Positions 30,863 through 58,288 of a stretch of 64,000 nucleotides of DNA are shown here, in pieces (within the stretch, counting starts at the first letter, position 1; each line of letters starts with the position of its first letter). Both the position numbers and the translations under genes were made by a program. The stretch is from Sediminitomix flava (lineage in GTDB: Bacteria > Bacteroidota > Bacteroidia > Cytophagales > Flammeovirgaceae): the NCBI RefSeq assembly GCF_003149185.1, contig NZ_QGDO01000001.1, positions 248,001 through 312,000 of the forward strand, given 5' to 3'. The notes under the pieces are model-generated. The model saw only the letters and a list, made by a program, of their open reading frames with translations, had not been told where the DNA came from and did not search any database.

Positions 30863-30981
30863 TGCTAATTTGAAGGCATGTTCATCGAAGATCTTGTGGA
30901 AGAAAATGCTTTTCGATGAAAAAAAAGCCCTAAATCGCCATTTTAGAGGCATTTTGGAGCTAAGTGGTACTCGGGGCGGGA
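30863..30981. repeat. attL: left copy of an imperfect 119-bp direct repeat with a 50-bp identical core
   Basis: Bases 30932-30981 are identical to 58169-58218 and contain the terminator loop region and the 3' end of tRNA-Leu (ending GTGGTACTCGGGGCGGGA), after which the two copies diverge. The preceding 69 bp align at the same distance with partial identity: TGCTAATTT then TTCATCGAAGAT on both sides. It is thus the displaced tRNA 3' end left by site-specific integration. Confidence 0.9.
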
Positions 30982-31108
30982 GATTATGTAACTATTAATC
31001 ATCCAACAATATAGTTTAAAGAGCTATCACTGATGGAGATCTGCGATTTTATAGACAGAAAAAAGTCAAAGTTTTACATCACAATTTTCATCGAAAATCG
31101 TCATCGAA
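30882..31108. repeat. Candidate integrase arm-binding sites, left end
   Basis: The octamer TCATCGAA occurs at 30882, 31088 and 31101, and inverted at 30912. Two more copies lie at 58119 and 58131 beside the right core. Clustering at both ends of the island, next to an integrase gene with an N-terminal arm-binding domain, suggests arm-type sites; binding is inferred. Confidence 0.55.
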
Positions 31109-31209
31109 AATTCATATCACATGCAATTATCGTGATAGATATAAAATTGTCAAATCTTCATCTCCTATTCTTTGACCTGTGCATGTTTAACTACAAAATG
31201 TTATAGCAC

Positions 31210-32469
31210 ATGGATATTAAAGTGCATTTCCAATTAGGTGGCAAGAAAGACAAAAAAGGCTTAGATTACATTAGAGTGATTATTTACCTTGATAAATTCC
31301 ATCAGCTTTCTCTCACTACGGGGTACAAGATTAACCCAAAATACTGGAACCCTAAAAAACAAGAGGTTCGAAAAACCTTTTCTGACGCAGAGGTAATCAA
31401 CACTTTCTTAGCCAGCCGAAGCACACTAATCAAAAACCTTTACTTCCAAGAATATAGAACACGTGAAATTGACTGGGAAACCTTCAAGGAGAAGGCCAAA
31501 GCTCTCAGCTACCATAAGCAGAAGACAAAAGCAATGCCTGAACATATAGCCCCAAAAAAGAAACTGAGCTTTTATCAAGTTTTTTCTATGTTTCTTGAAG
31601 CTCAGTCTTCATCCTATGCACGAAGTACCTACAAAAACTATTTGGTTACCTTGAGGAACATTAAGGAGTTCAACCAAAGTCAACATAAATCAAACCTTCG
31701 CTTTGAAGACATCAACTTGGGATGGTTTGATCAATTCAAGAACTACTTGGTCTCCCAACAGCTCAGTAATGCAACGATCAACCAACAAACTAAGAATACA
31801 AAGGCTTTCTTGAATTGGGCGAGGGAACGAGAATACCATGCCATATCACTTGATGGTAGCAAGGTAAAATCCTTAAAAGAGCATGACTTCGATCCAATTG
31901 TACTGACCAAAGAGGAGTTGAAACGCCTATATGAAATGAAGTTGGAGCCTTTTTCTACAGAAGACAATATCAGGGACGTCTTCTGCTTTCTATGTTTTAC
32001 TCTCCAGCGTCATGAGGCATTAAAGAACTACTCACCCGTTCAGGTTGTAGACAAAAAACAAGCTTGGGAATTTACCTCACAGAAGACTCGTAAGAAAACC
32101 TATGTCCCATTCTCACTCTTTGGAGGGAGGGCAAAAGAAATTTTGGAAAAATATGATTACCAATTACCCCTACCATCCAAGAATCTAATCAACAAGATGA
32201 TCAAGAAGCTCTGCTTTAAGGCAGGGATCACAACACTTGTCTACAAACCCAAGTATATTGGAAGCAATGACCTTGGAGAGTATACAGAGAAATACAAGGC
32301 CGTAACGACTCATACAGCTCGCCGTACGGGGACAACTCTTGCCGCTGAACAGTTATCTCTACAATTCATCCAGAAGATCACCAATCATTCGTCACTGAAG
32401 ACACTGAAGAAGTACATTAAGGTACACAAGGATGTGATGATAGAAAAGTGTTCAGATGTATCCTTGTAG
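31210..32469 (+). CDS. Tyrosine recombinase/integrase (Bacteroidota type), attL-proximal
   Basis: A 419-aa integrase. The N-terminal arm-DNA-binding domain (about 1-90) is followed by a SAM-like core-binding domain (about 118-210) and a catalytic domain from about 230. The catalytic set is present: Arg267 (FTLQRHEAL), His368 and Arg371 (THTARRTGTT), His393 (TNHSSLKTL) and the nucleophile Tyr402 (KKYIKV). The box-I Arg context lacks the usual TG-R-sE form, as in the second integrase of this island. It lies 228 bp inside the 50-bp att core and is the best candidate for the enzyme acting at tRNA-Leu. Confidence 0.95.
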   Translation: MDIKVHFQLGGKKDKKGLDYIRVIIYLDKFHQLSLTTGYKINPKYWNPKKQEVRKTFSDAEVINTFLASRSTLIKNLYFQEYRTREIDWETFKEKAKALSYHKQKTKAMPEHIAPKKKLSFYQVFSMFLEAQSSSYARSTYKNYLVTLRNIKEFNQSQHKSNLRFEDINLGWFDQFKNYLVSQQLSNATINQQTKNTKAFLNWAREREYHAISLDGSKVKSLKEHDFDPIVLTKEELKRLYEMKLEPFSTEDNIRDVFCFLCFTLQRHEALKNYSPVQVVDKKQAWEFTSQKTRKKTYVPFSLFGGRAKEILEKYDYQLPLPSKNLINKMIKKLCFKAGITTLVYKPKYIGSNDLGEYTEKYKAVTTHTARRTGTTLAAEQLSLQFIQKITNHSSLKTLKKYIKVHKDVMIEKCSDVSL

Positions 32470-32703: not shown

Positions 32704-33612
32704 ATGACTAGAGATAAAAAGCAGATTTTCCGTATCATTCGAATGATTCAGGACTTGTCTCGTTCTGAATACACAAGGAAAGAGTTAGAAAAACGCTATG
32801 GGGTAGGCAAGACACAAATACATAATGACTTCTTAACCATTGAAAAACTTCTTTACCCCGAATGTATCCAAAGCAGAACAATGTCAGGTTCGAGGGCTTT
32901 TTTATACAGTATCGATGACAAATACAAACTGAATATAAATACTTTCTTAAGTAGAGAAGAAGAGAAAGTCTTGTTAAGTGCTGTTCACCAACTAGAGCAG
33001 GAAGAGGTATATCATAGCATTAAGCGAAAACTCAAACAGTTTTCCACACAGATATGGACACAAATCACGACAGACTTAGACAAAGAAAATAAGATAGCCT
33101 TTGCCGTGACAAAAGGCTATTGTATCTCTCTGAGAGATTATGAAGCTCCTTCAACAAATACAATAGAAGATTATGAAATAGAACCTATAAAGCTATTTGA
33201 TGGAGGAAGAAGATTATATGCTTATGATTTAAAAAGTAAGCAACTCCTAGACTTTAAACTGACAAGAGCCGGTGCCGTAGAAATAACAAAACAGGAGATC
33301 AAACACCAGCATTTATATCAAGACCGTTTTCACGATGCCTTTGGCTGGTCTTGTGAAATAGGAAAAGAAATACCCATACAATTTGAAATGGACAGGCTTG
33401 CTGGGCGAATGATTCAAGAAAACTACCCTGATGTAAAGATCACTTCAATTCATAGGATTGATGGTGTTTTTATCTACCAGTATAAAGGAAAAGTAGCAAA
33501 CTATAAAGGTGTTGGTCGTTTTGTTCTTAGTCTACCGAGTCACATTCGAAATATACAGCCACAAAGTCTCAGAGACTACCTATTAGACCAAATGGGAAAG
33601 TATTTAGTGTGA
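32704..33612 (+). CDS. WYL-domain transcriptional regulator of the CRISPR locus
   Basis: A 302-aa protein. The N-terminal HTH (RIIRMIQDLSRSEYTRKELE, RYGVGKTQIHNDFLTIEKLL) is typical of the YafY/PafB group. The middle and C-terminal parts form a WYL-type ligand or nucleic-acid-sensing domain (IEPIKLFDGGRRLYAYDLKS) and an extension with beta strands. It is 203 bp upstream of cas6 on the same strand. A WYL protein has been reported to repress the type I-D locus of Synechocystis, so control of this cas operon is the obvious hypothesis. The ligand is unknown. Confidence 0.85.
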   Translation: MTRDKKQIFRIIRMIQDLSRSEYTRKELEKRYGVGKTQIHNDFLTIEKLLYPECIQSRTMSGSRAFLYSIDDKYKLNINTFLSREEEKVLLSAVHQLEQEEVYHSIKRKLKQFSTQIWTQITTDLDKENKIAFAVTKGYCISLRDYEAPSTNTIEDYEIEPIKLFDGGRRLYAYDLKSKQLLDFKLTRAGAVEITKQEIKHQHLYQDRFHDAFGWSCEIGKEIPIQFEMDRLAGRMIQENYPDVKITSIHRIDGVFIYQYKGKVANYKGVGRFVLSLPSHIRNIQPQSLRDYLLDQMGKYLV

Positions 33613-33815: not shown

Positions 33816-34616
33816 ATGACAGAATACAGCATTTTGTTCAAGCAAGTGAAAGGAAGTCATTGCATTAGCTATAACATAGCATTTGTATTATCCCAAGCAC
33901 TGAATAAAAACATTGGGAAAGTTGATCCTAAAGCGGGAGATTTTGCACATAACGAAGGACATAAAGGCGGACATCGCAACTTCAAGCTTTGGACACATAG
34001 CATCATGCCAAAAGCCTACGATGTATTGACAGAAGGAATGCTTTTACAAGGTGAATATTTATTGGAATGGAGGGTCCGTTTCTATGACAGATACTTAGCT
34101 AAAGCTTTTGAAAAAGCACTAATCCTTTGTCCTGAGTGGGAGATTGTAGATAGATTTGGGATACATCATTGGCAAATTATCAAAAGTGAACCTGTACTTC
34201 ATCAGCCTTCTTTTAACCCTGTGATGTCTTATAAATTGATTACACCTGCGGTGATTTCTATACCACATCAGAAGACCAGAAAACCATTTTATCTGACTTT
34301 CAGAGATCATAAGGAGCTTATTCCTGCACAAATTCAAAAGCATTTGCAAAATAAGGCACAGACACTCTACAATTTGGGTGCGGCACGAGATGGAATGGAG
34401 GAAGGCTTAGAAGACATGAGCTTTAAACTCTTGAATACTCCAAAGACAAAAAGGCTCACCTTCAAAGAAACACAGAATTACTCTCAAAAGGTATTTGCCA
34501 ATCAATTTGAGTTTGAATTGATAGCTCCTGTGGAGGTTCATAAACTTATTTACTATGGCGGTTTTTTAGAAAAAACAGCTCGGGGATGTGGATTTTTAAA
34601 AATACGAACATCATGA
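33816..34616 (+). CDS. cas6: CRISPR endoribonuclease Cas6
   Basis: A 266-aa Cas6 that cuts the CRISPR transcript within each repeat and probably stays with the crRNA. Two ferredoxin-like halves are expected. The C-terminal glycine-rich loop GGFLEKTARGCGFLKI (248-263) is diagnostic. A histidine-rich N-terminal segment (AHNEGHKGGHRNFKLWTHS, about 44-62) could supply the catalytic His. It heads a cas operon; its TGA overlaps the cas10d ATG (ATGA), indicating translational coupling. The family call is secure from the loop, the size and the neighbours. Confidence 0.9.
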   Translation: MTEYSILFKQVKGSHCISYNIAFVLSQALNKNIGKVDPKAGDFAHNEGHKGGHRNFKLWTHSIMPKAYDVLTEGMLLQGEYLLEWRVRFYDRYLAKAFEKALILCPEWEIVDRFGIHHWQIIKSEPVLHQPSFNPVMSYKLITPAVISIPHQKTRKPFYLTFRDHKELIPAQIQKHLQNKAQTLYNLGAARDGMEEGLEDMSFKLLNTPKTKRLTFKETQNYSQKVFANQFEFELIAPVEVHKLIYYGGFLEKTARGCGFLKIRTS

Positions 34617-37507
34617 ATCAGCACAAGAAATTAAAATTTGAGACAGGTACTCCCCTGTTTACAACAGAGCTATTCAATAAGGTATTTGATGATTTTCTTG
34701 ATAAAGTCATTCTTGCTCTAATCGAGGAAAAGGAAGGAAAAAAGATAGGTGGAATCATTGAGGCAAAAGGCTATTTTGAAAAGAATGGAGTCCGTTACAT
34801 AGGATATGACCAACCTTATCATATCCATATCCTGCAAGGTATGATTCCCGCGATGTTTCTTCTGGAGCATACGTTTAAACACAATGGATGGATCAATACA
34901 GAAGAAGGAGAATTGTATTTGAAACTCTTTGTGTTGGGCTTCTTTTGCCACGATGCGAATAAACTGATGTCGTCCTTCAATAAGGACGGAGAAGACGAAA
35001 AGAGCCTAGAACAAGCCCTAAAAGAAATGAAAGGTGAAGAGTTTATAAGTTCTTTAGGGATGGGTGACTTCTTCCCTGAAACGTCTTCCTATTTGGAAGA
35101 TATTGAATACCTCGCCTTGATGGCGGAGCATCGAACGTCTATGATCTCATTTGGTAAAAGTACCAAACTTTCCCAAACTCAGCTATTAGATAAATTAGCT
35201 CCGTATGTGCGCATAGCGGATAGAATTGCTTCGGCAGGTGGTTCGGTTATTGAATATTGGAACGAGAAAAAACAAATTTGGGAGCAGAAAGACAGCAAAG
35301 GGCATGATGATCAATATCAGAATATTAGTACGCTCTATCAGTACATCAAAAAGGAAGTCGATACACTCGGAACAGATTTTCCTCCTTTGTCTTATGTCCG
35401 TATTCAGCAAAATCCTTTTAGCCTGCTTTCAGATCTGATTCTAAGACAAACAGCAAAGATCTTGGAAGCTGATGGCATACATACTTTCTCTTTTATGAGA
35501 GATGGCTTTTTATATTGGGGAGAAGCTTTGACAGCGAGTCAAATAGAATGTATTAGAGGAACTCTAACAAAAGCTACAGAGAAAGGGGTTGATGTTATAA
35601 AGTTGACAAAAGTAGATTCTCAATCCTGTAATTTCGGATTTATTGGTGATATCCCTTTCTCCAAAAAAGTTTGGGAAAAGCTAATCAAGACTAAGGCTGA
35701 TTCATTCTTACAGATTGCACCCAACGGTTTGGATAAGCTTTCTGATAAAGCAATGAAAGATCTTATTAGTTGTATTGAGCAGTTAACAGAGCTATATGAC
35801 TTACCTATACAACAACCCAAGCTTGATGATAAAGGGAAACTGTATTTACGCTTTTCTGAAGACTGGGATGAAGACGAAGAGACTTTTAAATTTGTCAATT
35901 TATTTTGTTTGGTTAAATCTCGATGGATGAATGCCAAGATAAATAAAGCTTGGGATACGGAATTCAAAGAAAAATTAATCTCAGGTACTACATTCTATGA
36001 GGAACATGCACTCATCTTCGAAGAAGCCGAGCAGAAGGTGATCACCTATTCAAGGTTAAATGCTCACTTTGGAGGATTGATTGACAGACCCGCCAATATT
36101 TTGAAAATGTTATTGGCCTTGGTTGAAGCGATTAAAGCCCTTGAAGATGATGAAGGAAACTGTTCTGAAGACTGGTTCACAGATCTAGTAGGTGTCTTAG
36201 ATAAGCCTTCTGAAAAAGTACAAAGCACGCCAATTATTGAAGTATTTGAACACTATTTTGATTACAATGGGAATTTGTTGAATCGAAATTGGATAGATCA
36301 AATTGCGTCAATTCCTACTTCAGACAAAATTTGTGTCTTTACGGGTAGGCCTGCTACTAAGCCTTATAAAGAAGTCAATGCTTATGGGTTAGGTGCAAGA
36401 GGTTTTACAAAAAGGAGTAATACGACATTAAAGAATACAATTTCCTACGTCTCTGATGTTGCTGATGCAGAAAACAAGGCACGAAAGAATTTCTCGGACC
36501 GAGTGAAAGCAAACTCAGCGATCTATATGGACTTCTGTGAATCTTTTGGTGGGACAGTCTTCGATTGGAATTTTTTCAAGGAAATCGCCAAGAAAAAAGG
36601 TTTTAAGAGTGAACTAAGCAAAACCAATAAAGAGGAAGTGATCATGCTCAATAAGTCTGCTCAACTCAATCAAAATAAGTTTGCTTATGAATTGACTGAG
36701 GTGGGACGAGATTTAAAGAGTCAGGTTTTCTTGGTGAGAAATCACCTTGAATTAGCTGTCAAAACAGGTCTGCGGACTTATATAACTTCGATTATGGGGG
36801 AGTATAGACCACATAAAGAAATCTTTGTCTATGAACAGGCTCCCGCCTTTATTCAAAACTTAGGGTGGAACCGAGTACACTTGGTACATGCTTCAGCCAT
36901 TTTCAAGGAGGTTGCAATGTGTTTAGAACTGTTTAAGCACGGAAAAAATTTGGATACGGGTCTGATGACTCATTATTCAAATGACCGAAATATCATTTTC
37001 CAAGCCTACTATCAATTTGTATCGGGAAATGAAAAATCCGCAAAATCCATAAAAGAGAAAATCAACAATTTTATAGAAGAAAATCCTTTAAAACTGAAGT
37101 ATATGAGTGTTGTATCAGAATTAGCAGAAATCGCCTTGAGAATCCGTACAGCTAACAAAAACTTTAACCAAGAAAGTGAGCTTTTCCGATTGGCATTGGA
37201 TACGATGAGGGAGGAATTGAGACATGAACAATCTAAAGAAGATGTGATTGAGCGTATCACTGGTGAACTCTTCAAAAAAGAAAGGTTGGAGTATATGGGC
37301 AAAGACAAGAAACAGGCTTGTTCAGATTTTGCAACAAAGATGTACGAAGGACTTTTAGAAAAAGAATGGAAAGGGCAATTCCCATCACAAAACCGTGAAC
37401 GTAGAATTTTGTATCAATTTGCTTATCTCTATAGTGTCAAGGTCGATAAACTAAGAGCCCAACGAGCAGAAGAGAAGAAGCATCAGAAAGTACAGGATGC
37501 GAACTAA
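34613..37507 (+). CDS. cas10d: Type I-D large subunit Cas10d (Csc3) with HD nuclease domain
   Basis: I start at the ATG overlapping the cas6 stop (ATGA); an earlier in-frame ATG at 34586 lies within cas6. It has 964 aa. The N-terminal HD domain carries His70/His72 (QPYHIHILQG), His113-Asp114 (FFCHDANKL), His173 (AEHRTSM) and Asp203 (RIADRIAS). In type I-D the nuclease sits here rather than on Cas3. The middle (from about 570, KICVFTGRPATKPYKE) is a Csc3-like body without a GGDD cyclase motif. The C-terminal 196 aa are all-helical and could be made separately as Cas11d from 36917. It is followed after 59 bp by csc2. Confidence 0.9.
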   Translation: MNQHKKLKFETGTPLFTTELFNKVFDDFLDKVILALIEEKEGKKIGGIIEAKGYFEKNGVRYIGYDQPYHIHILQGMIPAMFLLEHTFKHNGWINTEEGELYLKLFVLGFFCHDANKLMSSFNKDGEDEKSLEQALKEMKGEEFISSLGMGDFFPETSSYLEDIEYLALMAEHRTSMISFGKSTKLSQTQLLDKLAPYVRIADRIASAGGSVIEYWNEKKQIWEQKDSKGHDDQYQNISTLYQYIKKEVDTLGTDFPPLSYVRIQQNPFSLLSDLILRQTAKILEADGIHTFSFMRDGFLYWGEALTASQIECIRGTLTKATEKGVDVIKLTKVDSQSCNFGFIGDIPFSKKVWEKLIKTKADSFLQIAPNGLDKLSDKAMKDLISCIEQLTELYDLPIQQPKLDDKGKLYLRFSEDWDEDEETFKFVNLFCLVKSRWMNAKINKAWDTEFKEKLISGTTFYEEHALIFEEAEQKVITYSRLNAHFGGLIDRPANILKMLLALVEAIKALEDDEGNCSEDWFTDLVGVLDKPSEKVQSTPIIEVFEHYFDYNGNLLNRNWIDQIASIPTSDKICVFTGRPATKPYKEVNAYGLGARGFTKRSNTTLKNTISYVSDVADAENKARKNFSDRVKANSAIYMDFCESFGGTVFDWNFFKEIAKKKGFKSELSKTNKEEVIMLNKSAQLNQNKFAYELTEVGRDLKSQVFLVRNHLELAVKTGLRTYITSIMGEYRPHKEIFVYEQAPAFIQNLGWNRVHLVHASAIFKEVAMCLELFKHGKNLDTGLMTHYSNDRNIIFQAYYQFVSGNEKSAKSIKEKINNFIEENPLKLKYMSVVSELAEIALRIRTANKNFNQESELFRLALDTMREELRHEQSKEDVIERITGELFKKERLEYMGKDKKQACSDFATKMYEGLLEKEWKGQFPSQNRERRILYQFAYLYSVKVDKLRAQRAEEKKHQKVQDAN
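36905..36911 (+). promoter_or_regulatory. Internal Shine-Dalgarno within cas10d
   Basis: AAGGAGG lies 5 bases before an in-frame ATG (36917-36919). Strong Shine-Dalgarno sites are otherwise not seen before the cas genes here, which makes it stand out. Confidence 0.6.
36917..37507 (+). CDS. cas11d: Candidate Cas11d small subunit, internal start in cas10d
   Basis: In frame with cas10d (codon 769), an ATG preceded by AAGGAGG would give a 196-aa, mostly alpha-helical protein. It starts MCLELFKHGKNLDTGLMTHY and ends in a basic, coiled tail (KVDKLRAQRAEEKKHQKVQ). Internal translation of small subunits from the large-subunit gene has been shown experimentally for type I-D and other type I systems. 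The size and position fit that precedent. There is no separate small-subunit gene in the operon. The call is an inference from sequence; expression of the short product is unproven. Confidence 0.6.
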   Translation: MCLELFKHGKNLDTGLMTHYSNDRNIIFQAYYQFVSGNEKSAKSIKEKINNFIEENPLKLKYMSVVSELAEIALRIRTANKNFNQESELFRLALDTMREELRHEQSKEDVIERITGELFKKERLEYMGKDKKQACSDFATKMYEGLLEKEWKGQFPSQNRERRILYQFAYLYSVKVDKLRAQRAEEKKHQKVQDAN

Positions 37508-37566
37508 GTCTTTATCTGCATTAATATTCACATTCTTATTTTTTTAAAATTAAACATTCAGAAAAC

Positions 37567-38514
37567 ATGCAATCTATATTTGAAAATATTCCAGCTCAAT
37601 TATTCCGTACAAACCTAAAAGAGAACAAAACAGGTGTGTTCAAAATTGCTTTGGTCAGAGAAGTGACAGGCACTCTTATCAATCGAAGTAACTTTGCAGA
37701 TGAAACCATCACTTTTCGGACACAAGAAGGAAAAACATTGATAGAAATCCCTGCACGGAAATTAAAAGCGCCTGAAAAATTGACAGGTCTAAAGTTGTGT
37801 CGCCAAACAAACTCAGTAGATGAAGAAGTACGCTACAATGTCATAAAAGACAGTAAACAACTTGCAAACCCAAACTCTATTCTATTTGGAGATTCTGTAA
37901 CGGCTTCAGGTGATGCCGTCGGTATAAAATCTCGTGTAATTTATGATTGGACATATTCGATCCGTCCTTGTGATGATTTGGTAGATACTCTCCAACACAA
38001 TGCCCTTAGCGAAGGAGGAACCATGTATGATGAGGAAGAAGGTAAGCTCAGACAATCCTTGTTTAGGGTGCAATATATCATGCCTCAAACCTATTTCCCT
38101 CATTTTATTACAATCGAAAATGCAACACCCGAGCTATTGTTCCATTTACTCTCATCGATTGTCTTTACGCAAAGGTATGGTGCGCAAACAACAACTACAG
38201 GCAGTAATATCCGCAACCATATTGTAGCCTTAGGTTATGATGCCACAGAAGCTCCATTAAATAGTTTTACCTTTTCCAATGAGTGGAACCAAGAAGAGGC
38301 TGTCAACTTAGAGAATGTCAAAGAAAAGATGCTTTCGAAGATGCAAAGCTATTACGGCAAACAACTGATACAAGGTGAAGAATTGGAAAGCCAAATCAGA
38401 GGTGCATGGAAAGAAGATCTTACAGAAAAGTATCAAATGCTTCAAGCTAAGTGTGAGGAATATCTAAAAGAGATCAAGGTGATTTCAACAGCAAAAGGAA
38501 AGAAAGGCAAATAA
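37567..38514 (+). CDS. cas7: Type I-D backbone subunit Cas7 (Csc2)
   Basis: A 315-aa protein that would line the crRNA in several copies. Diagnostic Csc2 segments are present: NPNSILFGDSVTASGDAVGI, KSRVIYDWTYSIRPCDDLVD, GGTMYDEEEGKLRQSLFRVQ, MPQTYFPHFITIENATPELL, QRYGAQTTTTGSNIRNHIVA. These establish subtype I-D rather than I-A, I-B or III. It ends in a helical basic tail. It lies 17 bp upstream of csc1 and 59 bp after cas10d, within one operon. Confidence 0.95.
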   Translation: MQSIFENIPAQLFRTNLKENKTGVFKIALVREVTGTLINRSNFADETITFRTQEGKTLIEIPARKLKAPEKLTGLKLCRQTNSVDEEVRYNVIKDSKQLANPNSILFGDSVTASGDAVGIKSRVIYDWTYSIRPCDDLVDTLQHNALSEGGTMYDEEEGKLRQSLFRVQYIMPQTYFPHFITIENATPELLFHLLSSIVFTQRYGAQTTTTGSNIRNHIVALGYDATEAPLNSFTFSNEWNQEEAVNLENVKEKMLSKMQSYYGKQLIQGEELESQIRGAWKEDLTEKYQMLQAKCEEYLKEIKVISTAKGKKGK

Positions 38515-38531
38515 TATAAAGTCAGGATTTT

Positions 38532-39185
38532 ATGAAAATATATGCATTAAAACTGACACTCCTCAATCACCTGTTCTATTTCACGGAGTCTACCAATGGT
38601 TCCCGAACAGGTGATTTTATAGGTGATTTGGCACTAACTTATGCTTTCCGACCTTGGCTTGCTCCAACTGATGAAGCAATTCCATTTCGGGCTAAACCCG
38701 AATATGAAGAAATCGCAGATTGGGGATTTTACTGTACACTGGCGATACCGCAAAAAACGAAGCCAACAAATGTATACGCTCGGAATACGCTTTTCCATGC
38801 AGATGGCATGTATGATAAGCCTAGTTTTGAAAGTGCGGCTAAATCCCCTTTCAAAAGCTTTTTCCACGTACAGGGTATCCAAGCCACTTCAGAATTCCAT
38901 TGTTTCTTGATCGCAAAAGAGGAGGTTAAACTCCCCCCAACTATCCGAGTAGGCAATGGAAAGGAAACCTTGGTCAAGGTCGAAGAAATTGATAGGGATA
39001 AGCAATCATTTTGGCTTAATGCTTTTACCCACAAAAAAGTATTCAACAATCTGGAACAGGTCGCTGACTTGATGATTGACAAAGGCATACACGACAGGCA
39101 ATATGTTTTAGAAAACTATATCCTGTTGAAGGGTTTTGATCAATCCTATTTAGAGGAAGTTTTTGAGCCATTATTTAGTGCTTAG
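38532..39185 (+). CDS. cas5: Type I-D subunit Cas5 (Csc1)
   Basis: A 217-aa protein expected to bind the 5' tag of the crRNA. The RAMP fold start MKIYALKLTLLNHLFYFTES is followed by the Csc1-typical GDFIGDLALTYAF, then YARNTLFHADGMYDKPSFES and a beta-hairpin SFFHVQGIQATSEFHCFLIA. The first element is the Csc1 counterpart of the opening RAMP strand and the igNyALtYA segment. It lies 17 bp after cas7 and 65 bp before the cas3' ATG. Confidence 0.88.
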   Translation: MKIYALKLTLLNHLFYFTESTNGSRTGDFIGDLALTYAFRPWLAPTDEAIPFRAKPEYEEIADWGFYCTLAIPQKTKPTNVYARNTLFHADGMYDKPSFESAAKSPFKSFFHVQGIQATSEFHCFLIAKEEVKLPPTIRVGNGKETLVKVEEIDRDKQSFWLNAFTHKKVFNNLEQVADLMIDKGIHDRQYVLENYILLKGFDQSYLEEVFEPLFSA

Positions 39186-39250
39186 AGAAATTGAAGGGCT
39201 GTCATTTGGATTGCCCTTCTTCCAAGAATCTAAAAATTGGCAATAAAAAC

Positions 39251-41281
39251 ATGGAGCAATTTCAAATTACCATACCGCCTCAATATGTACAACAAGTACA
39301 ACAAACCGCCTTGTTCAAGCGTCCTGACTCCCCCGAATTTGAAGGGAGAATGCACGAGATACAGCGTGTTATGAGAGACGATTTTGACAAATTACCTCTT
39401 ATTACAGAAGTAATAGCCCCGACAGGAACAGGTAAATCCTATGCCTTTGCCTTTCCGACTCTGAAAGCCAAACAAGAAAGACAAGTACAAAGAAAAGCAC
39501 TGCTTGTATTGCCTACGAATGTTCTGATTGATGAGCTGTATGAGGCTTTTTCTGCGATGTTCACAGAACTCAAAATAGTCAAGGCGACAAAAGAAACTTT
39601 GGATAAGATGGAAGCTAAAGGAAGTTACAAACGTTGGCAGGCAATTAGTGAAATGGCAGAAACGGCAGATATCATGATTACTAACCCTGATATTCTCAAT
39701 TATGCTATGCTGGGGGGGTATGATAAGCATATCTTCAAGGACAGTAAACTATCAGGAGGAAATACTTATTGGCATTTCCTAAAGAATTTTCAGTATATCA
39801 TTTATGATGAATTTCACCTGTACCGTGAGGAACAGATCGCATCCATTTTCACAATGATTGAGTTGAGAGAATGTTTTATCAATGATTCGGCTCGATTCTT
39901 TTTTGTGACGGCAACCCCTGAAGAAGAAATTACACATTTTCTGACAGAGCGAAATTACCGTTACCAAAGTATCTCTGAATGCCTATCGTCTTCGCCAACA
40001 ATGGAAGCGAAGCTTCCTGCAGTCTTCACAAGATTGGAAGAAACCGTTACGCAATCTCCAGAAGAATCACGTTGTATTCATGGAGAATTGACCATAGAAT
40101 TTGTCTTGTCCGATTCTGTGGGAGAGGTTTTGACATATAAAGAAGAAGAGCTGAAAGCCCAGAAGGAACAAGATATCCGTTCCTTATTAATTCTAAACTC
40201 ATTGGTAGATATACAGCGTCTGTATTTTCAATATAAGCCTAGTTGGCAAAACACCCACAGGCTGAGCGAGGTTTCCGGTTATTTCGATGAGGGTTATCAG
40301 CAGGCGGACATTATTTTCTCGACTAGTAAATCAGAGGTCGGGGCAAACTTTGGGGTGGATTATACCATCATGCAATCGGGTTTTGATTACAGAAGTTTCT
40401 TGCAACGTTTTGGTAGAACGGCAAGAGGGGAGATGAAAGGGAAAATAGTCATCTTTTTCTTGAAACAGAGAGAAGAAAAAAAACAATTCAATAAGCTGAA
40501 AAAGCTCTTTTCAGTGCAAGAAGAATGGGGCTATAACTCCTTTACAAAGACCGTAAAGAGTGTACTTCAGAAACCTGAATTTTATACTAATAAGATCAGT
40601 CCGTTTATGGGGCAATATCTCTATGCGGTTTATCACAATGCGGGGCGCTATAATTATGATACTAGAGAGTATATCCGTAACCGTATTATTGAAATGGATA
40701 TGCCTGATATTCAAAGAGGGCAGTTCAAGTTTTTTCAAATTATAAATGCTTCTATTGTTCATCTAGGAAAGGGAGGGTATGCAAGACAATGGCAAGAATG
40801 GTGGGAAAAGTATCTTGATTCTTACCTCTCTTTTAGGGGATCAAGTCTTCATATTTCGATCAAAGATATGGAGCGAAACGGGCAAATCTTTAGCTATTCA
40901 AAAGAATGGGTCTTACGCAACAAAGCTATTACAGACATCTTGGAAGGACAGGCTCCTGATGGAAGGGACTTGTTTGTTGTAGAAGGTCTTAGGGAGAAAC
41001 AAGACAATGAGTTATTGTATGAATCTGATACGATTCCTTCAGTAGGAGCTATGCAGAATCGCTTCTTTGAAAGGAAACACAAAAGCAATCAACGAATGCG
41101 TAAACAATTATTTTTGGGAGCACTCAAAAATATCGAAAATGGAAATGAGGGTATCGATAGTTTCTATGACAAACAAGAAGAGTTATTGGAAAAACTAGAA
41201 GGTTTAGCTCCGTTTTTTACAGAAAAGAGGCTAAATATTATCGGAGTTCAAGGAAGTGATGGCCTCTCTGTTATTTTCTAG
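39251..41281 (+). CDS. cas3: Type I-D helicase Cas3' (no HD domain)
   Basis: I use the ATG at 39251 (MEQFQITIPPQYVQQVQQTA); the open frame extends upstream only with a non-ATG start. It has 676 aa. SF2 helicase motifs are complete: APTGTGKSY (Lys62), DEFH at 186-189 (IIYDEFHLYREEQ), TATPEEE, and QRFGRTARG (385-393). No HD motif is found at either end, consistent with type I-D, where the nuclease resides on Cas10d. It is the last cas gene; the array begins about 35 bp after its stop. No cas4, cas1 or cas2 follows. Confidence 0.92.
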   Translation: MEQFQITIPPQYVQQVQQTALFKRPDSPEFEGRMHEIQRVMRDDFDKLPLITEVIAPTGTGKSYAFAFPTLKAKQERQVQRKALLVLPTNVLIDELYEAFSAMFTELKIVKATKETLDKMEAKGSYKRWQAISEMAETADIMITNPDILNYAMLGGYDKHIFKDSKLSGGNTYWHFLKNFQYIIYDEFHLYREEQIASIFTMIELRECFINDSARFFFVTATPEEEITHFLTERNYRYQSISECLSSSPTMEAKLPAVFTRLEETVTQSPEESRCIHGELTIEFVLSDSVGEVLTYKEEELKAQKEQDIRSLLILNSLVDIQRLYFQYKPSWQNTHRLSEVSGYFDEGYQQADIIFSTSKSEVGANFGVDYTIMQSGFDYRSFLQRFGRTARGEMKGKIVIFFLKQREEKKQFNKLKKLFSVQEEWGYNSFTKTVKSVLQKPEFYTNKISPFMGQYLYAVYHNAGRYNYDTREYIRNRIIEMDMPDIQRGQFKFFQIINASIVHLGKGGYARQWQEWWEKYLDSYLSFRGSSLHISIKDMERNGQIFSYSKEWVLRNKAITDILEGQAPDGRDLFVVEGLREKQDNELLYESDTIPSVGAMQNRFFERKHKSNQRMRKQLFLGALKNIENGNEGIDSFYDKQEELLEKLEGLAPFFTEKRLNIIGVQGSDGLSVIF

Positions 41282-41316
41282 TTTTGGTAATCATTTACCT
41301 AAACGTTCTTTGACAT

Positions 41317-44298
41317 CTTATTTTTTTACCAGAATGGTGTTATGACCTTGACATCTATATGGAATCGGTACGCGAGAACTTATGTAATCTTTACCAGAAT
41401 GGTATTCTGACTTCTTATCCTTTTCCCCAAAGTCGTTGAATTTGTCATGTAATCTTTACCAGAATGGTATTCTGACGATACTTCCTTCCATGTGAAGTTT
41501 TGAAGTAACGGCATGTAATCTTTACCAGAATGGTATTCTGACGTACCTCTTGACCAGATGTTAGTGTTCTCCTTTGCATGTAATCTTTACCAGAATGGTA
41601 TTCTGACTGAATATATCAAAGAGAATGTAATCCTTGAAACTTGATGTAATCTTTACCAGAATGGTATTCTGACGTTGTAGACTCTACATAGTTCTCACTT
41701 TCTTCTGTAATGTAATCTTTACCAGAATGGTATTCTGACGATAATTGAATTGTCTTGCTGATCTGAAGTTTAAACATGTAATCTTTACCAGAATGGTATT
41801 CTGACTTGTTTATCAACCGTAAATCAAGAACCCCAATTGGATGTAATCTTTACCAGAATGGTATTCTGACTCACTAAACATGGATACAATAGAAATAGTA
41901 TCTAAGATGTAATCTTTACCAGAATGGTATTCTGACGAGCCTATGCTTGAGGAATATGGGTTTAGAACTCTTATGTAATCTTTACCAGAATGGTATTCTG
42001 ACTAATAAGCCCCTGAAGACCTGCAATAGATTCGCTATTATGTAATCTTTACCAGAATGGTATTCTGACATGATTGCCATTTCTTGTCATTCGCTTTTTA
42101 TGGAAATGTAATCTTTACCAGAATGGTATTCTGACAACGAAAGAGGGCTGTTTTGCTAGTAAGCCCTTTAGATGTAATCTTTACCAGAATGGTATTCTGA
42201 CCTGCCCTGCCTCATGAGTTGAACCTTGCGAGTGCTATGTAATCTTTACCAGAATGGTATTCTGACCCCTACGAATGAATACAATCTCATTACCCGAAAG
42301 ATATGTAATCTTTACCAGAATGGTATTCTGACGCGTTAATCCACGATGCATTTATATTAATTGCATTATGTAATCTTTACCAGAATGGTATTCTGACAGA
42401 GATCTAACACCGCTATAAAATCCTTTCCATCATGTAATCTTTACCAGAATGGTATTCTGACATAATTCGGAGTGGTAAAAAAGTATATTTAATTTGTGAT
42501 GTAATCTTTACCAGAATGGTATTCTGACGAATCTTTCCCCATATGTTTATCTAATTGCAGGTGAATGTAATCTTTACCAGAATGGTATTCTGAACCTTGA
42601 TCATCGACAGGCACTTGCCCGTTTGTAGAATGTAATCTTTACCAGAATGGTATTCTGACTTGCCTCCAACTGCCTTACAAGCTCCCTGCCCGAAATGTAA
42701 TCTTTACCAGAATGGTATTCTGACTTGTAAATTTGAAGCCTTACAATGTTGAAAAAAGCATGTAATCTTTACCAGAATGGTATTCTGACTGAAATCTAGT
42801 AATTTGAAAAGGTGCATCCTCGCTAATGTAATCTTTACCAGAATGGTATTCTGACGTTTATAACGGTGAGACGGATAATACTTCTACGGTATGTAATCTT
42901 TACCAGAATGGTATTCTGACAAAGCAGCTCCTAAAGCAGCAGTAAGAAGAAAGCAAATGTAATCTTTACCAGAATGGTATTCTGACTGTTCTGTCTCGAT
43001 AATGAGTGCGCAATGCTCTTCATGTAATCTTTACCAGAATGGTATTCTGACATGATTGCCATTTCTTGTCATTCGCTTTTTATGGAAATGTAATCTTTAC
43101 CAGAATGGTATTCTGACAACGAAAGAGGGCTGTTTTGCTAGTAAGCCCTTTAGATGTAATCTTTACCAGAATGGTATTCTGACGCTTCCATAAATGGCTC
43201 ATGTCCAATCCCCAATACGATGTAATCTTTACCAGAATGGTATTCTGACCTGATTAATGGAAGTGTAATACCTTTCATTAGTCTTATGTAATCTTTACCA
43301 GAATGGTATTCTGACTTAATTAAATTCTCATACGGTAATATATATAGAGGCATGTAATCTTTACCAGAATGGTATTCTGACTCGGGCATTTCCATGACAT
43401 CTAGTTTTGTCATGTATGTAATCTTTACCAGAATGGTATTCTGACTGTTATAACATGTCTGCGGCATCGTGGTGGGTTGGAATGTAATCTTTACCAGAAT
43501 GGTATTCTGACTATTGACTTTGCATTTTATCAATTTTGACATTTGCATGTAATCTTTACCAGAATGGTATTCTGACTTTGATATGTCTATTGTTCAAAGT
43601 GTGACATATAAAATGTAATCTTTACCAGAATGGTATTCTGACTATTTTATTTCTGCGACAAGTGGTTATGACGTTGTATGTAATCTTTACCAGAATGGTA
43701 TTCTGACTTGTGAAAAGACTTCAAATGTCCCCAGCGTTGATTGATGTAATCTTTACCAGAATGGTATTCTGACTGATGATATAACCAAGGCATGTTTTGA
43801 ATATTTGGAATGTAATCTTTACCAGAATGGTATTCTGACCTTATGAAAACTGCACTGTTGTTAGCTCTTCCTCTTATGTAATCTTTACCAGAATGGTATT
43901 CTGACACGGATAGTGAATGGGCACAGAAGTGGGGTAAGAAAATGTAATCTTTACCAGAATGGTATTCTGACTGGGAATAGATTTTCTTTTCCATTTCGTC
44001 GGCTTCTATGTAATCTTTACCAGAATGGTATTCTGACGTAGTAGACTCTACATAGTTCTCACTTTCTTCTGATGTAATCTTTACCAGAATGGTATTCTGA
44101 CCTTCTAAACCTTGCTATTTGGTCTATTTGGAAGTATATGTAATCTTTACCAGAATGGTATTTTGATTTTTAGGAATGATGACCGACTAAAATAAGTTGA
44201 CCATGTAATTTTGACCAGTATGATATTATGACTTGCCCAACTCAGATAAATTGCCAATACTAAAGACAATGTAACTTTACTAAGTTCTACATAATATT
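41317..44298 (+). CRISPR. Type I-D CRISPR array: 43 good 30-bp repeats plus 3 decayed ones
   Basis: Forty-three repeats (41382-44167), all but two of them identical as far as I read them, alternate with 42 spacers of 34-37 bp. The 30-bp unit starts ATGTAATC, has a hairpin TACCAGAATGGTA in the middle, and ends ATTCTGAC. The exceptions are a last-base change in the copy before 42596 and three changes in the 44138 copy. Degenerate repeats flank it at 41317 on the left and at 44203 and 44269 on the right. On the plus strand the hairpin leaves an 8-base ATTCTGAC tag before each spacer, like the usual ATTGAAAC. I therefore infer left-to-right transcription, same as cas. Only 35 bp separate cas3' from the first decayed repeat, so a leader is short or absent. 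Confidence 0.97.
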
Positions 44299-44480: not shown

Positions 44481-44900
44481 TTATGATAGATCACCAAACT
44501 CTAAACTATTAAGCATATTACAGACTAAAGCAATACTACTAAGTCTCTTAGCCATCTCATAAGGAGAATTCCAATCTAAGTAGACATTATCTTTTTTAAG
44601 CCATTTATTGAACCCTTCTACAGAAGCAAAAACTCGATGTCCTTGATTTACTAAACCAATCAAATAAACAACCCTCTCCTGAATATCAGATTTAAAAGTT
44701 CTTTTCTTGTTAAGATAATTGTTCAACTCTGAAGTACTAATGTTCAGTAACTCTGAAAGATCTGTTTTTGACCATCCGCTAATTTCAAATAAATATAGTA
44801 GACTTTCTTGTTCTTCAGGAAACTCAGAAATGAAATTAAAGACTTGAGAATCTTTTGCCATATTTGGCAATTTTGATTTAAAATCATTTGATATAATCAT
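44481..44900 (-). CDS. Xre/MbcA/ParS-type antitoxin-like protein, no partner toxin
   Basis: A 139-aa protein. The central Xre-type HTH reads LFEISGWSKTDLSELLNIST and SELNNYLNKKRTFKSDIQER. The C-terminal toxin-binding-like domain (DUF2384 pattern) reads FNKWLKKDNVYLDWNSPYEM and ends NMLNSLEFGDLS, with the characteristic Leu-D-x-x-P and terminal E-x-G. Such antitoxins normally neutralise a RES-domain toxin encoded next door. None is seen within 2 kb on either side, so it is orphaned or acts as a plain regulator. Next to the array it could also bind nearby operators. Confidence 0.7.
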   Translation of the reverse strand: MIISNDFKSKLPNMAKDSQVFNFISEFPEEQESLLYLFEISGWSKTDLSELLNISTSELNNYLNKKRTFKSDIQERVVYLIGLVNQGHRVFASVEGFNKWLKKDNVYLDWNSPYEMAKRLSSIALVCNMLNSLEFGDLS

Positions 44901-45100: not shown

Positions 45101-45190
45101 TGTCGTCTATTGTCATTTATTGTCACTTAATGTCGTCTATTGTCGTCTATTGTCATTTATTGTCACTTAATGTCGTCTATTGTCGATAAC
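45101..45190. repeat. Iteron-like array of nine phased decamers
   Basis: Eight complete decamers and one partial follow each other without gaps. The types are A = TGTCGTCTAT, B = TGTCATTTAT, C = TGTCACTTAA, in the order A B C A A B C A, then TGTCGATAAC. TGTC recurs every 10 bp, about one helical turn, and the 40-bp block 45101-45140 is duplicated exactly at 45141-45180. Directly repeated, helically phased sites are the form of replication-initiator iterons or cooperative operators. Confidence 0.85.
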
Positions 45191-49293: not shown

Positions 49294-52200
49294 CTATTTT
49301 TTGTTGTGTTCGTTCAACAGCGCCAACACACAATCTTCATTTTTTTCAAAATCGTTGCATGGTAGGTAAGCACTGATCCATTTTCGATAGGTTTCAGTGA
49401 TAGGTTTTTTCTTTTTTTCAAAAGTTTTTTGCAATTCCTTCACTCTTTTTTCAAAATCATTCTGATTTATGTAACCGCCAACGAGGTTTTCTCGAAGGTC
49501 TGACAATGCCACATTGTGTTCCTTATGCAGACTACTCAACTCAAAGCTGAACTCTGTCAAAATCTTTCTACCGTTTTGACGCATAAGTATCTTGTCTTCC
49601 CCAACCGTGTCTTTTATAGATTCAAGTATTTCGCTCAATACCAGCCTTAGTTCGGGGCGAAATCTCAATTGTGCCATCCCTTCAAAAACTAGTTCCTTGA
49701 CGATCTTACCCCCCATACGCTCTGTAGTATCACTGCTTCGCATAATACGCCCAATTATCTGTTTTAACATCCCTGCCTTCGCCTTATGAGGGTGTTGAAT
49801 CCCCTTTTCAAGACATCCCACAAGGCTTTCCGTGAGGTCTGAGATGTTTAATGTGAGAGTGAGTGTCTCATTGTAATTCCTGCCCACGAGTGCGGTACTT
49901 GAGTTAATATAGGTCAGCAAATTACCCGAATGATTAACATCTTCAATTACACTTTCTGCTGTAATCAATTTATCAGATACATCTGAAAGGATATAGCCAT
50001 TGAACCCATCGACTTTTTCAATCATGTGCTTTCGTGCGCATATAAACAGCGTGTCATTGCACTCTGTTGACTTTTGACAAATATTCTTGGGTGCAAGTAG
50101 TGTTCGGTGATCTCCTGTCTCTTTGAAGTTGATCAGTAGCTGATCTATGGAGGTTACCTTTGTTTCCAGCCGTGTGATCTCTCGATCAGGTACAGGCGTT
50201 GCACTTAATCGGGTGCTTTTGTCGAAAAGCGTGCTATCCTTTTTGAGAGCGATATGCCATAACCCATTCCCCTTCTCAATTGATCGTTGAAGTTGTCCTC
50301 TTTTGAATTCTTGAGTTTCTTCGTCCAATACAGGCTTATTATAGTAGAAAGGCTTAAAAAATAGCACTTTCCCTGCCGAGATGTGATTATAAAGGATTTC
50401 ATAAAACTCCTCGTATAAAGCGTCTTCGCTCCCCATACTTTGAAGATAGGCTTGCTTGAACTTTTCATAGCCTTCATGTCTCCATGTGGCAGAGTACACA
50501 TCCAGCATTTGTGTGTCGTTGGTCATACCCTGCCATGCTTCGGCAGGGGTGAGTTCGATACACTCGTCGAACAGGTATTTTCTGTCAAGTCTGTCATTGA
50601 ATTTTGTAAGCACTTCGGGTTTGAAGGTGTCACGGGTTTGATCTCGGTACGAGAAACTTTGAAAGCAGAAAGACAATTGCTCTGTAAAGTGACATTTCAC
50701 CTCCTCTTGCTCTTCGTCTTCGTTGCTTTCACCTTCTGATGACGGTATTGTATGTGTAAGCTTTGCGTATTCGGCATCCGTAATAGCTGAAAGCCTTTTG
50801 AAATCATCAGATTTGCATATCGAGAAGGTGTTGTGCAGTTTATTGAATTCATACGCATGTTCGAGCTGTACAACCTCATAGCGGTTGAAGAGGTGCTCTT
50901 CGTCCACAATTGAGTGTTCAATTATTGATTGAAAGGCATTCAGCCTAGACACATACTTCGGTAGAAAAGACTCCGATAAGTAGGCATGCGTAGTGATCAC
51001 TAGCTTTGCATTTTCAAGCATGCTGATGTCTGAAGTTGCCATGAACTTGATAACACCGAGTTCAGCCATGGTACTTTGTACCGATTTTGGGTCAATCTTC
51101 ACTTGATACTCTGAGGATAAGGCATCTATACTCGCACGAATCATGTCTTTGTAGACCGAATGTATTGTCTCTTTCGAATGAACAAACAATACAGAGACTT
51201 CACCTCGTAAAGCCCATTCCAGTAAAGCACTACCTGAAGCATACGTTTTACCTGAGCCTGTTGGTGCTTCAAGCGTTGTGTCAGGCTGTATCTGTCTTTT
51301 GATCTCAAGCGTTTTGTTTGCATACACCTGTAGGGCAGACTTTGCTAGTGCCTGCTTTACTTGCAAAACTATTTGTTGTACTTGAAGATAAGTCTCCTCA
51401 GAGATTCTGTGTACGATATCAGAAGAGTAGCCATCACCTGTTTCTGTATGGAAGTGCATTTTGAAGTATTCGTATTCACCTAGGACAGATACTTTACCCT
51501 TGTCAAGAATTTGTTTTGCCGTGTGCTTTTTACTGTATACCCTGCCACTTAACATATCTACAGTTTCTGTACCATCGTCAAGAATGAGATAAAGGCGTTG
51601 CGTTTCGGTATTGTGTGACCACTTCAACCCCTTGAGGTCTGCGCCTACTAATAGACTTCCTATCTTAGTTCCTGCATCACTATTAGTCGTTTTTACGCTA
51701 CTTGGACAGGTAGAGTCAAGCGGTGTAAAGGTGAAATATGGGGAAAGCTTTTTGATGTTGGGCTTGGTCAATTTCAGTACTTTTTTCTGTACCGTATTAT
51801 AACCACTGAGGCAGAGCACTCCTTGAGCAGGGAGTTCTGTAATAGAAAGTGTTTGCCTAACATCCTCTGACATATCTTCTTCTATTTCCTTGACCTCAAT
51901 ATGATAAGGTGAAGGCATTGTTGCTAAAACCCTCATGCGTCCCTTTGCTCTGTTTTCTTCACTGTATACGTGAAAATGCTTTTCAAAGAGTTTTCGTAGG
52001 TCTTTTGGAAGATCGTCAGGATGGGTACAGTCAAAATCTAACCAGACGGATTTTCCTTCTTCTACAGGTAGTGAATAACCATACATGCTTCTGTTCGACT
52101 CGTACGTCTCATGTATTTCATCGATTCCGTATCCCATCCCTTTTAAATTGTATATTTTCTTCTGCTGACCGCCAGAATAATTCGCAATGAGTTCTAGTGG

Positions 52201-54240: not shown

Positions 54241-54640
54241 ATGTAGGGAGTAGAAACCTTGACTCAAATGAAAAACCCTTACCAAAAAAAAAAGATAAAA
54301 ACAACGCTAATTAACTGATATTCAAATGAATTAAATTTTAAAAAAATTATTTTATCACATTAATGGTGTATTTACACACCTGTCTGGGTATATGGCTTAA
54401 CTTGTTGGGAGTACGGTTTGATTGACTCGGTATGTCGTATGACAATTTATCTTTCCGCATTCTATCTGCCAGTCTTGGAATATCAGTACCTACTTGATTG
54501 CCTTGTTTTGTTCTAATCAATAGGTTAAAAGTGTTAGTGTCTATTTAATTGATATTTTTTTCCTTCTCACCTTTTTCTTTCGTTGAAAGGTATCTATTCC
54601 ATAGCGATGAACATTTTCATAATTTAAAATCGCTAAAACA
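54241..54640. other. 400-bp gap between divergent polymerase and integrase genes
   Basis: No gene is seen. It should hold the divergent promoters of the polymerase-helicase and of the second integrase. The leftmost 45 bp could encode an N-terminal extension of the polymerase from a TTG start. Confidence 0.55.
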
Positions 54641-55903
54641 ATGGCTATTTCAATTTACTTTCAACTAGGCAAAAAAGAGGATAAAAAAGGGAAGGATTAT
54701 GTTTGTATGACAGTATACAAAGGTAGAGGTAAGCAATTCTCTTGTGCAACAGGTTATAAAATACATCCAAAAAATTGGGATGCAGAAAATCAAATTGCAA
54801 GACGTAGAGCAGAAGATGCACGAGTCATTAACTCGCACCTCGATCTTCGAAAAGATGATATTGAGGATATTTATATAAAAGAACTCGAAGCAAATTTGAT
54901 TGACTGGGATACCTTCAAGGCAAAAGCAAAATTTATTGCTCACAAGAAGAATAAGGGGAAAGTGTTTAACTTAAGCTCTACCCAAATCAAAAGTAAACAA
55001 GACTTCTTTCAAGTATGTGAAGCCTTCCTTGACATCAAAGGTAAGATATATTCCCGAAACACTATAAAAGGATATGAAGACCTTTTTTCAAAACTAAAAG
55101 AGTTTGAAGCAGAGAAAGAAACCAATATTATCTTCTCACAAATCACCTTACCTTGGTTTGATCAGGTTATTAACTTTCTCATAGATAGTCAACTCATGAA
55201 TTCATCTATTAACAACCATCTCAAGAACTTGAAAGCGTTTTTGAATTGGGCATCCGATAGAGGCTATTACCAAAAAAGATTTGACTTTACTAAGATCGGA
55301 AAGCTTCCTGAATCAGAGGGAGATACAATAGCTCTAAATAAAAAAGAGCTATTGAGACTGTATGAAATAGACCTTTCTGCTTTCCCTCACTTAGAGCCGG
55401 TTAGAGATGTGTTTTGCTTTTTATGCTTTACACTGCAACGTTACCAGTCATATAAAGACTATTCTCCCGATCAGATAATGAATAACGGGACTACTTGGGC
55501 TGCACAATGTGGGAAAGTATACGGTATTGCCTACGTCCCTTTAAATCTGTTTGATCACAGGGCTAAACACATTCTTGAAAAATACAATTATACTCTTCCA
55601 GAATATGCCGATGGATACTTGAACAAAGAGATCAAGAAAATATGTGAGATGGCAGGGATCAATGAAAAGGTTTTTGTCTCTAAGCGAATAGGAAATAGGG
55701 AAATAGGCATCTATAAATACAAATATGAAGTCATTTCATGCCATAGTGCACGTCGAACAGGAGTATCGTTAGCATCAGAGTTTTTGACACTTCCACAAAT
55801 TCAGAAAATCACTAAACATAAAAGCTTGAAAACATTACAAAAGTATATCAATATTGACCGTGAAAGTCTAAAAAATCACTGCACAAGAGTCACCTTATAT
55901 TAA
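54641..55903 (+). CDS. Second tyrosine recombinase/integrase (Bacteroidota type)
   Basis: A 420-aa paralogue of the integrase at 31210 with the same three-part layout: arm-binding domain, SAM-like core-binding domain (FFQVCEAFLDIKGKIYSRNT), catalytic domain. Catalytic residues are kept: Arg in FTLQRYQSYK, His and Arg in CHSARRTGVSL, His in TKHKSLKTL, and Tyr in QKYINID. It is clearly diverged from the first copy, so this is not a recent duplication. It may work with the first, or belong to an older element merged into the island. A terminator follows 7 bp after the stop. Confidence 0.94.
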   Translation: MAISIYFQLGKKEDKKGKDYVCMTVYKGRGKQFSCATGYKIHPKNWDAENQIARRRAEDARVINSHLDLRKDDIEDIYIKELEANLIDWDTFKAKAKFIAHKKNKGKVFNLSSTQIKSKQDFFQVCEAFLDIKGKIYSRNTIKGYEDLFSKLKEFEAEKETNIIFSQITLPWFDQVINFLIDSQLMNSSINNHLKNLKAFLNWASDRGYYQKRFDFTKIGKLPESEGDTIALNKKELLRLYEIDLSAFPHLEPVRDVFCFLCFTLQRYQSYKDYSPDQIMNNGTTWAAQCGKVYGIAYVPLNLFDHRAKHILEKYNYTLPEYADGYLNKEIKKICEMAGINEKVFVSKRIGNREIGIYKYKYEVISCHSARRTGVSLASEFLTLPQIQKITKHKSLKTLQKYINIDRESLKNHCTRVTLY

Positions 55904-55990: not shown

Positions 55991-56017
55991 CATACTGTAT
56001 CAACTTAAAACAGTATG
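55991..56017 (+). promoter_or_regulatory. Inverted repeat covering the start codon of the multi-HTH gene
   Basis: The perfect 8-bp arms CATACTGT and ACAGTATG are 11 bases apart; the right arm contains the ATG (56015-56017). This could be an autoregulatory operator or an mRNA hairpin hiding the start. Confidence 0.55.
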
Positions 56018-58099: not shown

Positions 58100-58218
58100 T
58101 GCTAATTTTAGGACGTTTTCATCGAAGATTTCATCGAAAAACTGACTTTAGATAACAAAAAAAGCCCCAAATCGCCATTTTAGAGGCATTTTGGAGCTAA
58201 GTGGTACTCGGGGCGGGA
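58100..58218. repeat. attR: right copy of the imperfect 119-bp direct repeat
   Basis: The core 58169-58218 is identical to 30932-30981. It covers the tRNA terminator arm and loop, the CCA end, the acceptor strand and part of the T arm of tRNA-Leu. The preceding 69 bp are partly conserved with the left copy, including TGCTAATTT and the TCATCGAA sites at 58119 and 58131. Confidence 0.9.
58160..58198 (-). terminator. Terminator of the tRNA-Leu cluster
   Basis: On the minus strand AGCTCCAAA pairs with TTTGGGGCT (one G-U pair), with an inner GCC/GGC stem, then seven T. It lies mostly inside the att repeat, so the integration event duplicated the terminator as well. Confidence 0.8.
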
Positions 58219-58288
58219 ATCGAACCCGCACGGTATTGCTACCACTGGATTTTGAATCCAGCGCGTCTACCAGTTCCGCCACCCGAGC
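58202..58288 (-). tRNA. tRNA-Leu (CAA), copy 1, att-containing
   Basis: A class II tRNA with a long variable arm. The anticodon loop is TTCAAAA (anticodon CAA) on stem CTGGA/TCCAG. The acceptor GCTCGGG pairs with CCCGAGT. The T loop is GTTCGATTCC. CCA is encoded in the DNA, unlike copy 2. Its 3' end (to 58218) is the island att core. Confidence 0.95.

Follow-up and report, generated by a model that had tools for sequence, protein, structure and literature searches.

A type I-D CRISPR-Cas system which has lost its adaptation genes and nearly all of its leader was identified in Sediminitomix flava, in the 64,000-nucleotide stretch of DNA analyzed here (hereafter the window). The reading which we favor, and which we hold to be likely, is that this system, carried by a mobile element, was frozen recently and is probably still competent for interference.

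Interference genes

The presence of a complete type I-D effector set (cas6, cas10d, cas7d/csc2, cas5d/csc1, and an HD-less cas3') was confirmed at positions 33816-41281. These five genes are all on the + strand, with open reading frames and intact catalytic motifs. They are listed here along with the gene preceding them and a candidate internal gene:

32704-33612, +, WYL-domain regulator (PADLOC WYL 1e-12)
33816-34616, +, cas6, crRNA-processing nuclease (PF01881 9e-9, TIGR01877 3e-14, PADLOC Cas6b 6e-24)
34613-37507, +, cas10d, large subunit with an N-terminal HD nuclease (AlphaFold model versus PDB; HD motif invariant)
37103-37507, +, candidate Cas11d small subunit, putatively read from an internal ATG of cas10d (invariant Met)
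37567-38514, +, cas7d/csc2 (TIGR03157 1e-30, PF18320 8e-34)
38532-39185, +, cas5d/csc1 (TIGR03159 4e-14)
39191-41281, +, cas3', helicase without an HD domain (TIGR03158 1.5e-32)

The TIGR03157 (Csc2) and TIGR03159 (Csc1) matches both lie above the curated cut-off. The helicase motifs GTGKS, DEFH, TAT, and QRFGRTAR of Cas3' are all intact, and no HD domain was found in this protein by profile search. The first-pass annotation of this DNA, which had based the subtype on the Csc2 and Csc1 signatures, an HD domain on Cas10d, and a Cas3' devoid of this domain, is borne out in all these respects.

The start of cas10d was placed at the ATG at 34613, which overlaps the cas6 stop codon, the longest ORF running from 34586. 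The methionine encoded at 37103, 134 codons before the end of cas10d, is invariant in seven and in 14 Bacteroidota Cas10d sequences, and Cas11d might be made from this internal start. The WYL gene occupies the same position as in Aureibacter tunicatorum and is 40% identical to the WYL gene found there.

Identification of Cas10d

No matches with the large subunit were obtained using the Pfam, NCBIfam, and PADLOC profiles, and with a profile built from seven Cytophagales homologs, the sole chain touched was 7sba_I (Cas10d of Synechocystis), in the region of the HD (E=0.022). In a fold search of the PDB with the AlphaFold model (mean pLDDT 71), the only entries below E<0.001 were four Cas10d structures (7sba, 7sbb, 6thh, and 6yes), and the Z score versus 7sba was 15.8. 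Judging from its predicted structure, the large subunit is Cas10d. Its N-terminus carries the residues HIH(79-81) and HD(122-123), and H122-D123 are invariant across the 14 Bacteroidota homologs. Since all three profile collections miss this protein, automated censuses may undercount or mis-describe the type I-D systems in this phylum.

CRISPR array and leader

The array is located just beyond the interference genes:

41305-41315, +, GTTCTTTGACA, promoter-like motif, sole remainder of the leader (same motif in Aureibacter and Flammeovirga)
41317-44232, +, CRISPR array with 45 copies of the repeat ATGTAATCTTTACCAGAATGGTATTCTGAC, separated by 44 spacers of 34-37 bp

The repeat is 30 bp long and is perfect in 41 of the 45 copies, the others having one, two, five, and eight mismatches, respectively; the degenerate copies are located at both ends. 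Forty-two spacers lie between repeats with at most two mismatches, which matches the number given in the first-pass annotation; 44 are obtained upon counting the degenerate ends, and 42 of these are distinct, a block of two spacers being duplicated (11-12 = 26-27). The internal repeats show a single substitution in all over 42 copies, and therefore the freezing of the array was probably recent, unless their sequence is maintained by selection for processing. Spacers 5 (41674-41709) and 41 (44038-44071), which are far apart, agree at 33 of their 34 shared positions; since they are nearly alike and yet unequal in length, they suggest that two separate acquisitions were made from related targets in the past.

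The gap between cas3' and the first repeat amounts to 35 bp, as against about 518 bp in Aureibacter. In Aureibacter, the GTTCTTTGACA motif stands directly 3' of cas3'; in Flammeovirga, it precedes the array by about 180 bp, and the leaders of the relatives span about 180-520 bp. The first repeat is a hybrid: six of its eight initial bases depart from the consensus, versus two of the remaining 22. The simplest reading of this pattern is that the leader, along with any newest spacers, was deleted from just past the promoter motif into a repeat.

The Aureibacter array has perfect repeats at its cas3' end and decaying repeats at its cas4 end, which places the leader on the cas3' side and means that the array is read on the + strand. 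An array on the - strand, with a repeat starting with GTC, was ruled out on these grounds; it is also contradicted by the shared 3' end ATTCTGAC, which falls at the position of the 8-nt handle. Folding of the repeat yielded a weak hairpin from either strand (z about -1) and did not decide the orientation.

The protospacer search called for in the first-pass annotation gave no match in any of the collections tried. None were detected in phages or plasmids, apart from one match at E=0.1 with a Calothrix plasmid, which runs across a spacer junction and was attributed to chance. In the genome of S. flava itself, the array and chance matches were the only hits, and in the 390 genomes of the order, the matches were at chance level. 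Viral contigs yielded nothing either with four spacer patterns or with the 26-nt core of spacers 5 and 41.

Absence of the adaptation genes

Whole-genome profile searches for Cas1 (PF01867), Cas2 (PF09827), and Cas4 (PF01930), which were positive in control genomes, gave no matches in S. flava (6.60 Mb, 39 contigs, 99.4% complete), although a plasmid carrying Cas1 could be missing from this assembly. No cas4, cas1, or cas2 remnants were found in the window by tblastn, and the repeat is confined to this locus, no second array carrying it being present elsewhere in the genome. The absence of these three genes reported in the first-pass annotation thus extends to the whole genome, and its suggestion that the array might depend on Cas1 and Cas2 from elsewhere finds no backing within that genome; its other suggestion, that of a fixed array, is strengthened by the missing leader. 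The genes cas1, cas2, and cas4 are typical of type I-D but do not define it (PMC10212523).

The nearest relative of the locus is found on plasmid pAT6 of Aureibacter tunicatorum (NZ_AP025311.1), which is likewise a mobile replicon. The two loci share the gene order WYL-cas6-cas10d-cas7d-cas5d-cas3'-array and the 3' end GGTATTCTGAC of the repeat, and their proteins are 78% (Csc2), 66% (Cas5d), 53% (Cas3'), and 50% (Cas10d) identical. Unlike the window, pAT6 has cas4-cas1-cas2 past the array, the long leader mentioned above, and an intact leader-proximal repeat. Since the gene order is otherwise the same, the comparison indicates that cas4-cas1-cas2 were lost from the Sediminitomix locus. In the five cas genes, codon positions 1 and 2 are identical to those of Aureibacter at frequencies of 0.68-0.83 and third positions at 0.37-0.45; dN/dS could not be used here because the synonymous divergence is saturated. 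A block of pAT6 (L032, 8850-23186) is annotated as encoding tail-fibre and DUF2586 proteins, and pAT6 might therefore be a phage-plasmid, or else possess a tail-like apparatus.

The DNA 3' of the array carries an Xre/ParS-type antitoxin gene and is then AT-rich. The antitoxin gene (44481-44900, -), which is of the RES/Xre kind, occupies the place of cas4-cas1-cas2 in Aureibacter, and no toxin gene was recognised beside it. At 45101-45190, the AT-rich region holds a 10-bp unit of the TGTC(G/A)... type in nine head-to-tail copies, possibly an iteron-like site.

The integrative element

The carriage of the module on a mobile element, which had escaped the first-pass annotation, emerged from the following features:

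30932-58218, integrative element carrying the I-D module, 27.2 kb (50-bp perfect direct repeat at its ends; integrases inside)
30932-30981, left att copy (50 bp identical to 58169-58218)
31210-32469, +, tyrosine integrase 1 (PF00589 8e-10, PF13102 2e-14, phrog_1 7e-28)
49294-54285, -, family-B DNA polymerase fused to an SF2 helicase, 1663 aa (phrog_1252, PF00270)
54641-55903, +, tyrosine integrase 2 (PF13102 4e-12, PF17293 4e-6, phrog_1 1.6e-20)
56015-57079, +, multi-HTH protein, excisionase-like (PF12728 1.6e-26; phrog_66, excisionase and regulator, 8e-19)
58169-58218, right att site, over the 3' end of tRNA-Leu(CAA) (58202-58288, -)

The right att copy covers the final 17 nt of the tRNA-Leu(CAA), and integrase 1, to which integrase 2 is 44% identical, begins 228 bp inside the left repeat. 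Based on this architecture, the I-D module can be said to be the cargo of a tRNA-integrated mobile element. The polymerase-helicase fusion, which matches phrog_1252 (DNA polymerase, 1e-44) over residues 229-576 and PF00270 (2e-6) over residues 1001-1136, is presumably the replication protein of the element. None of the other 379 genomes searched within the order encodes it, its matches in plasmids are below 30% identity, and no close relatives were found in viral contigs. At the DNA level, the only match between the element and plasmids is one of 72 bp at tRNA genes. A tandem tRNA-Leu(CAA) adjoining surE recurs in the family, but the far side is non-homologous in the relative examined, where no empty site could be demonstrated.

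A CRISPR-associated transposon was also considered. No Tn7-like or Mu-like transposase was recognised among the ORFs of the element scanned against Pfam and PHROGs, where the transposase profiles gave one weak overlap with an HTH protein (PHROGs), and this reading was therefore dropped. Type I-D CRISPR-associated transposons resemble the window in that their I-D effector genes are likewise borne by a mobile element (PMC11656645), but no Tn7-like genes were recognised here and both the HD and the helicase are intact.

Repeats resembling TTCATCGAAAAT are present near both ends of the element (30878-31112 and 58112-58135) and are possible integrase arm sites. Outside the element, two near-identical genes of 138 aa stand in tandem (4927-5343 and 5742-6158).

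Possible functioning and status of the locus

In the system as we picture it, the array would be transcribed on the + strand, either from the promoter motif retained or by read-through from the cas operon, which is plausible since cas3' ends 35 bp upstream on the same strand. Cas6 would cut each repeat, leaving the 8-nt handle AUUCUGAC, and Cas5d, Cas7d, and Cas10d, along with Cas11d produced from inside cas10d, would form a complex on the crRNA and locate DNA flanked by a PAM, which would be degraded by the Cas10d HD nuclease and the Cas3' helicase (this division of labour is that given in PMC10212523). Interference would thus be expected from the intact parts. Without Cas1, Cas2, and Cas4 and without a leader, no new spacers could be added, and therefore the 42 distinct guides would constitute a frozen memory.

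The loss of the leader and of the adaptation genes might alternatively have been an accident which left a decaying remnant, no longer expressed or useful and now disappearing. The leader deletion with its hybrid first repeat and the loss of cas4-cas1-cas2 are what one would expect of such a remnant, as is the fact that the system is known from one genome, the genus holding no other. The five open effector genes with their intact catalytic motifs argue in the opposite direction, and so does the greater conservation of codon positions 1 and 2 than of third positions relative to Aureibacter, although the latter mostly reflects the time before the loss; we give this explanation some weight, but a rather low probability. 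Adaptation might also take place in trans, with Cas1-Cas2 supplied by a visiting element or by a plasmid which the assembly lacks. Such cooperation is known between CRISPR types in one bacterium (PMC8092290) and between type IV-A and a host I-E system (PMC11656645), and the sister plasmid has its own cas4-cas1-cas2. This seems most improbable, however, as the assembly holds no Cas1, Cas2, or Cas4, the leader has gone from the front of the first repeat, and the repeats that follow were not copied from this leader-proximal, degenerate one.

Selection may have favored the loss of adaptation itself, the element keeping an interference-only system, with its guides, as a weapon against competing mobile elements. 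A fixed weapon, for instance against rival elements, had been put forward in the first-pass annotation, and the spacers yielded no evidence for it. The location of the system on a mobile element and that of its sister on a plasmid are compatible with this idea, as are the frequent absence of adaptation genes from CRISPR systems located on plasmids (modules of this kind accompany 36% of plasmid systems versus 88% of chromosomal ones) and the tendency of these systems to target plasmids (PMC9071438). We consider it unlikely, since none of the plasmids, phages, or genomes searched gave a match with a spacer, the diversity of the 42 spacers and the pair formed by spacers 5 and 41 resemble ordinary accumulation, and only one such locus is known, which gives no sign of maintenance over time. 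We are equally doubtful, if not more so, about a fixed-guide I-D system kept on purpose against competing elements, which would be a hard-wired counterpart of the type IV plasmid systems in which a DNA-degrading effector has been retained.

Mobile elements are already known to carry CRISPR systems devoid of adaptation genes (PMC11656645). Type IV systems and many plasmid loci combine a mobile carrier with the absence of adaptation genes, as is the case here (PMC9071438, PMC11656645); the window differs from them in that it keeps a complete DNA-cleaving type I effector and its host shows no Cas1 to borrow. The Sediminitomix locus is a clear example of an interference-only CRISPR on a mobile element rather than a new kind of system. 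What the recently frozen system favored here adds, along with its complete plasmid-borne sister, is a before-and-after pair in which the leader and adaptation genes of a complete CRISPR have gone while the effector is intact. It also provides a Bacteroidota example of type I-D carried as cargo by a tRNA-integrated element.

Distribution of type I-D in Bacteroidota

According to a review (PMC10212523), type I-D is abundant among archaea and cyanobacteria, one lineage of Cas10d belonging mainly to other bacteria; Bacteroidota go unmentioned in it. Csc2 was detected in one of the 395 genomes of the class sample, that of Sediminitomix, and in six of the 390 genomes of the order, the five others having Cas1 within a few kb. 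Scanning named genome contigs with a Cytophagales profile yielded 15 loci, all from Bacteroidota (including Fulvivirga, Flammeovirga, Microscilla, a Paludibacter MAG, and Bacteroidales MAGs), with Csc2 proteins 50-57% identical; along with the window and Aureibacter, they make up a set of 17 loci. No close relatives of Csc2 were found in viral contigs.

In the Csc2 tree, the 17 loci fall on one side with weak support (72/49), the window and Aureibacter forming a pair (93/96). This position means that type I-D is rare in Bacteroidota, yet judging from the tree it is established there and not foreign to the phylum, and the taxonomic novelty proposed in the first-pass annotation is no longer tenable. 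The other Bacteroidota loci have the same effector set as the window. Unlike the window, 12 of the 15 named loci (13 of all 17) have cas1 beside the effector genes, the array is mostly located after cas2, and no integrases like those of the window were found within the stretches retrieved. In one of the 12 (L050), cas1 is cut by the end of the contig; of the three remaining loci, L056 stops just past cas3', and L045 and L047 are described below. Synechocystis PCC 6803 (pSYSA) is comparable in terms of its type I-D effector set and the fold match with 7sba, but has cas3' first and cas4-cas1-cas2 present, and its Csc2 is distant (32% identity over half of the protein).

Two of the other loci show peculiarities of their own. 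In the Paludibacter MAG (L045, DYNA01000129.1, 9447-11629), an unknown ORF and then cas2 come after cas6, neither cas1 nor cas4 being interposed, and the contig ends soon after; this may possibly be an independent partial loss of adaptation genes. In a Bacteroidales MAG (L047, JAOZVK010000003.1, 13664-19265), the I-D genes run directly into an apparent further class 1 module, which has a Cas6 of its own; the two CRISPR types stand side by side and possibly share adaptation genes located beyond the stretch retrieved.
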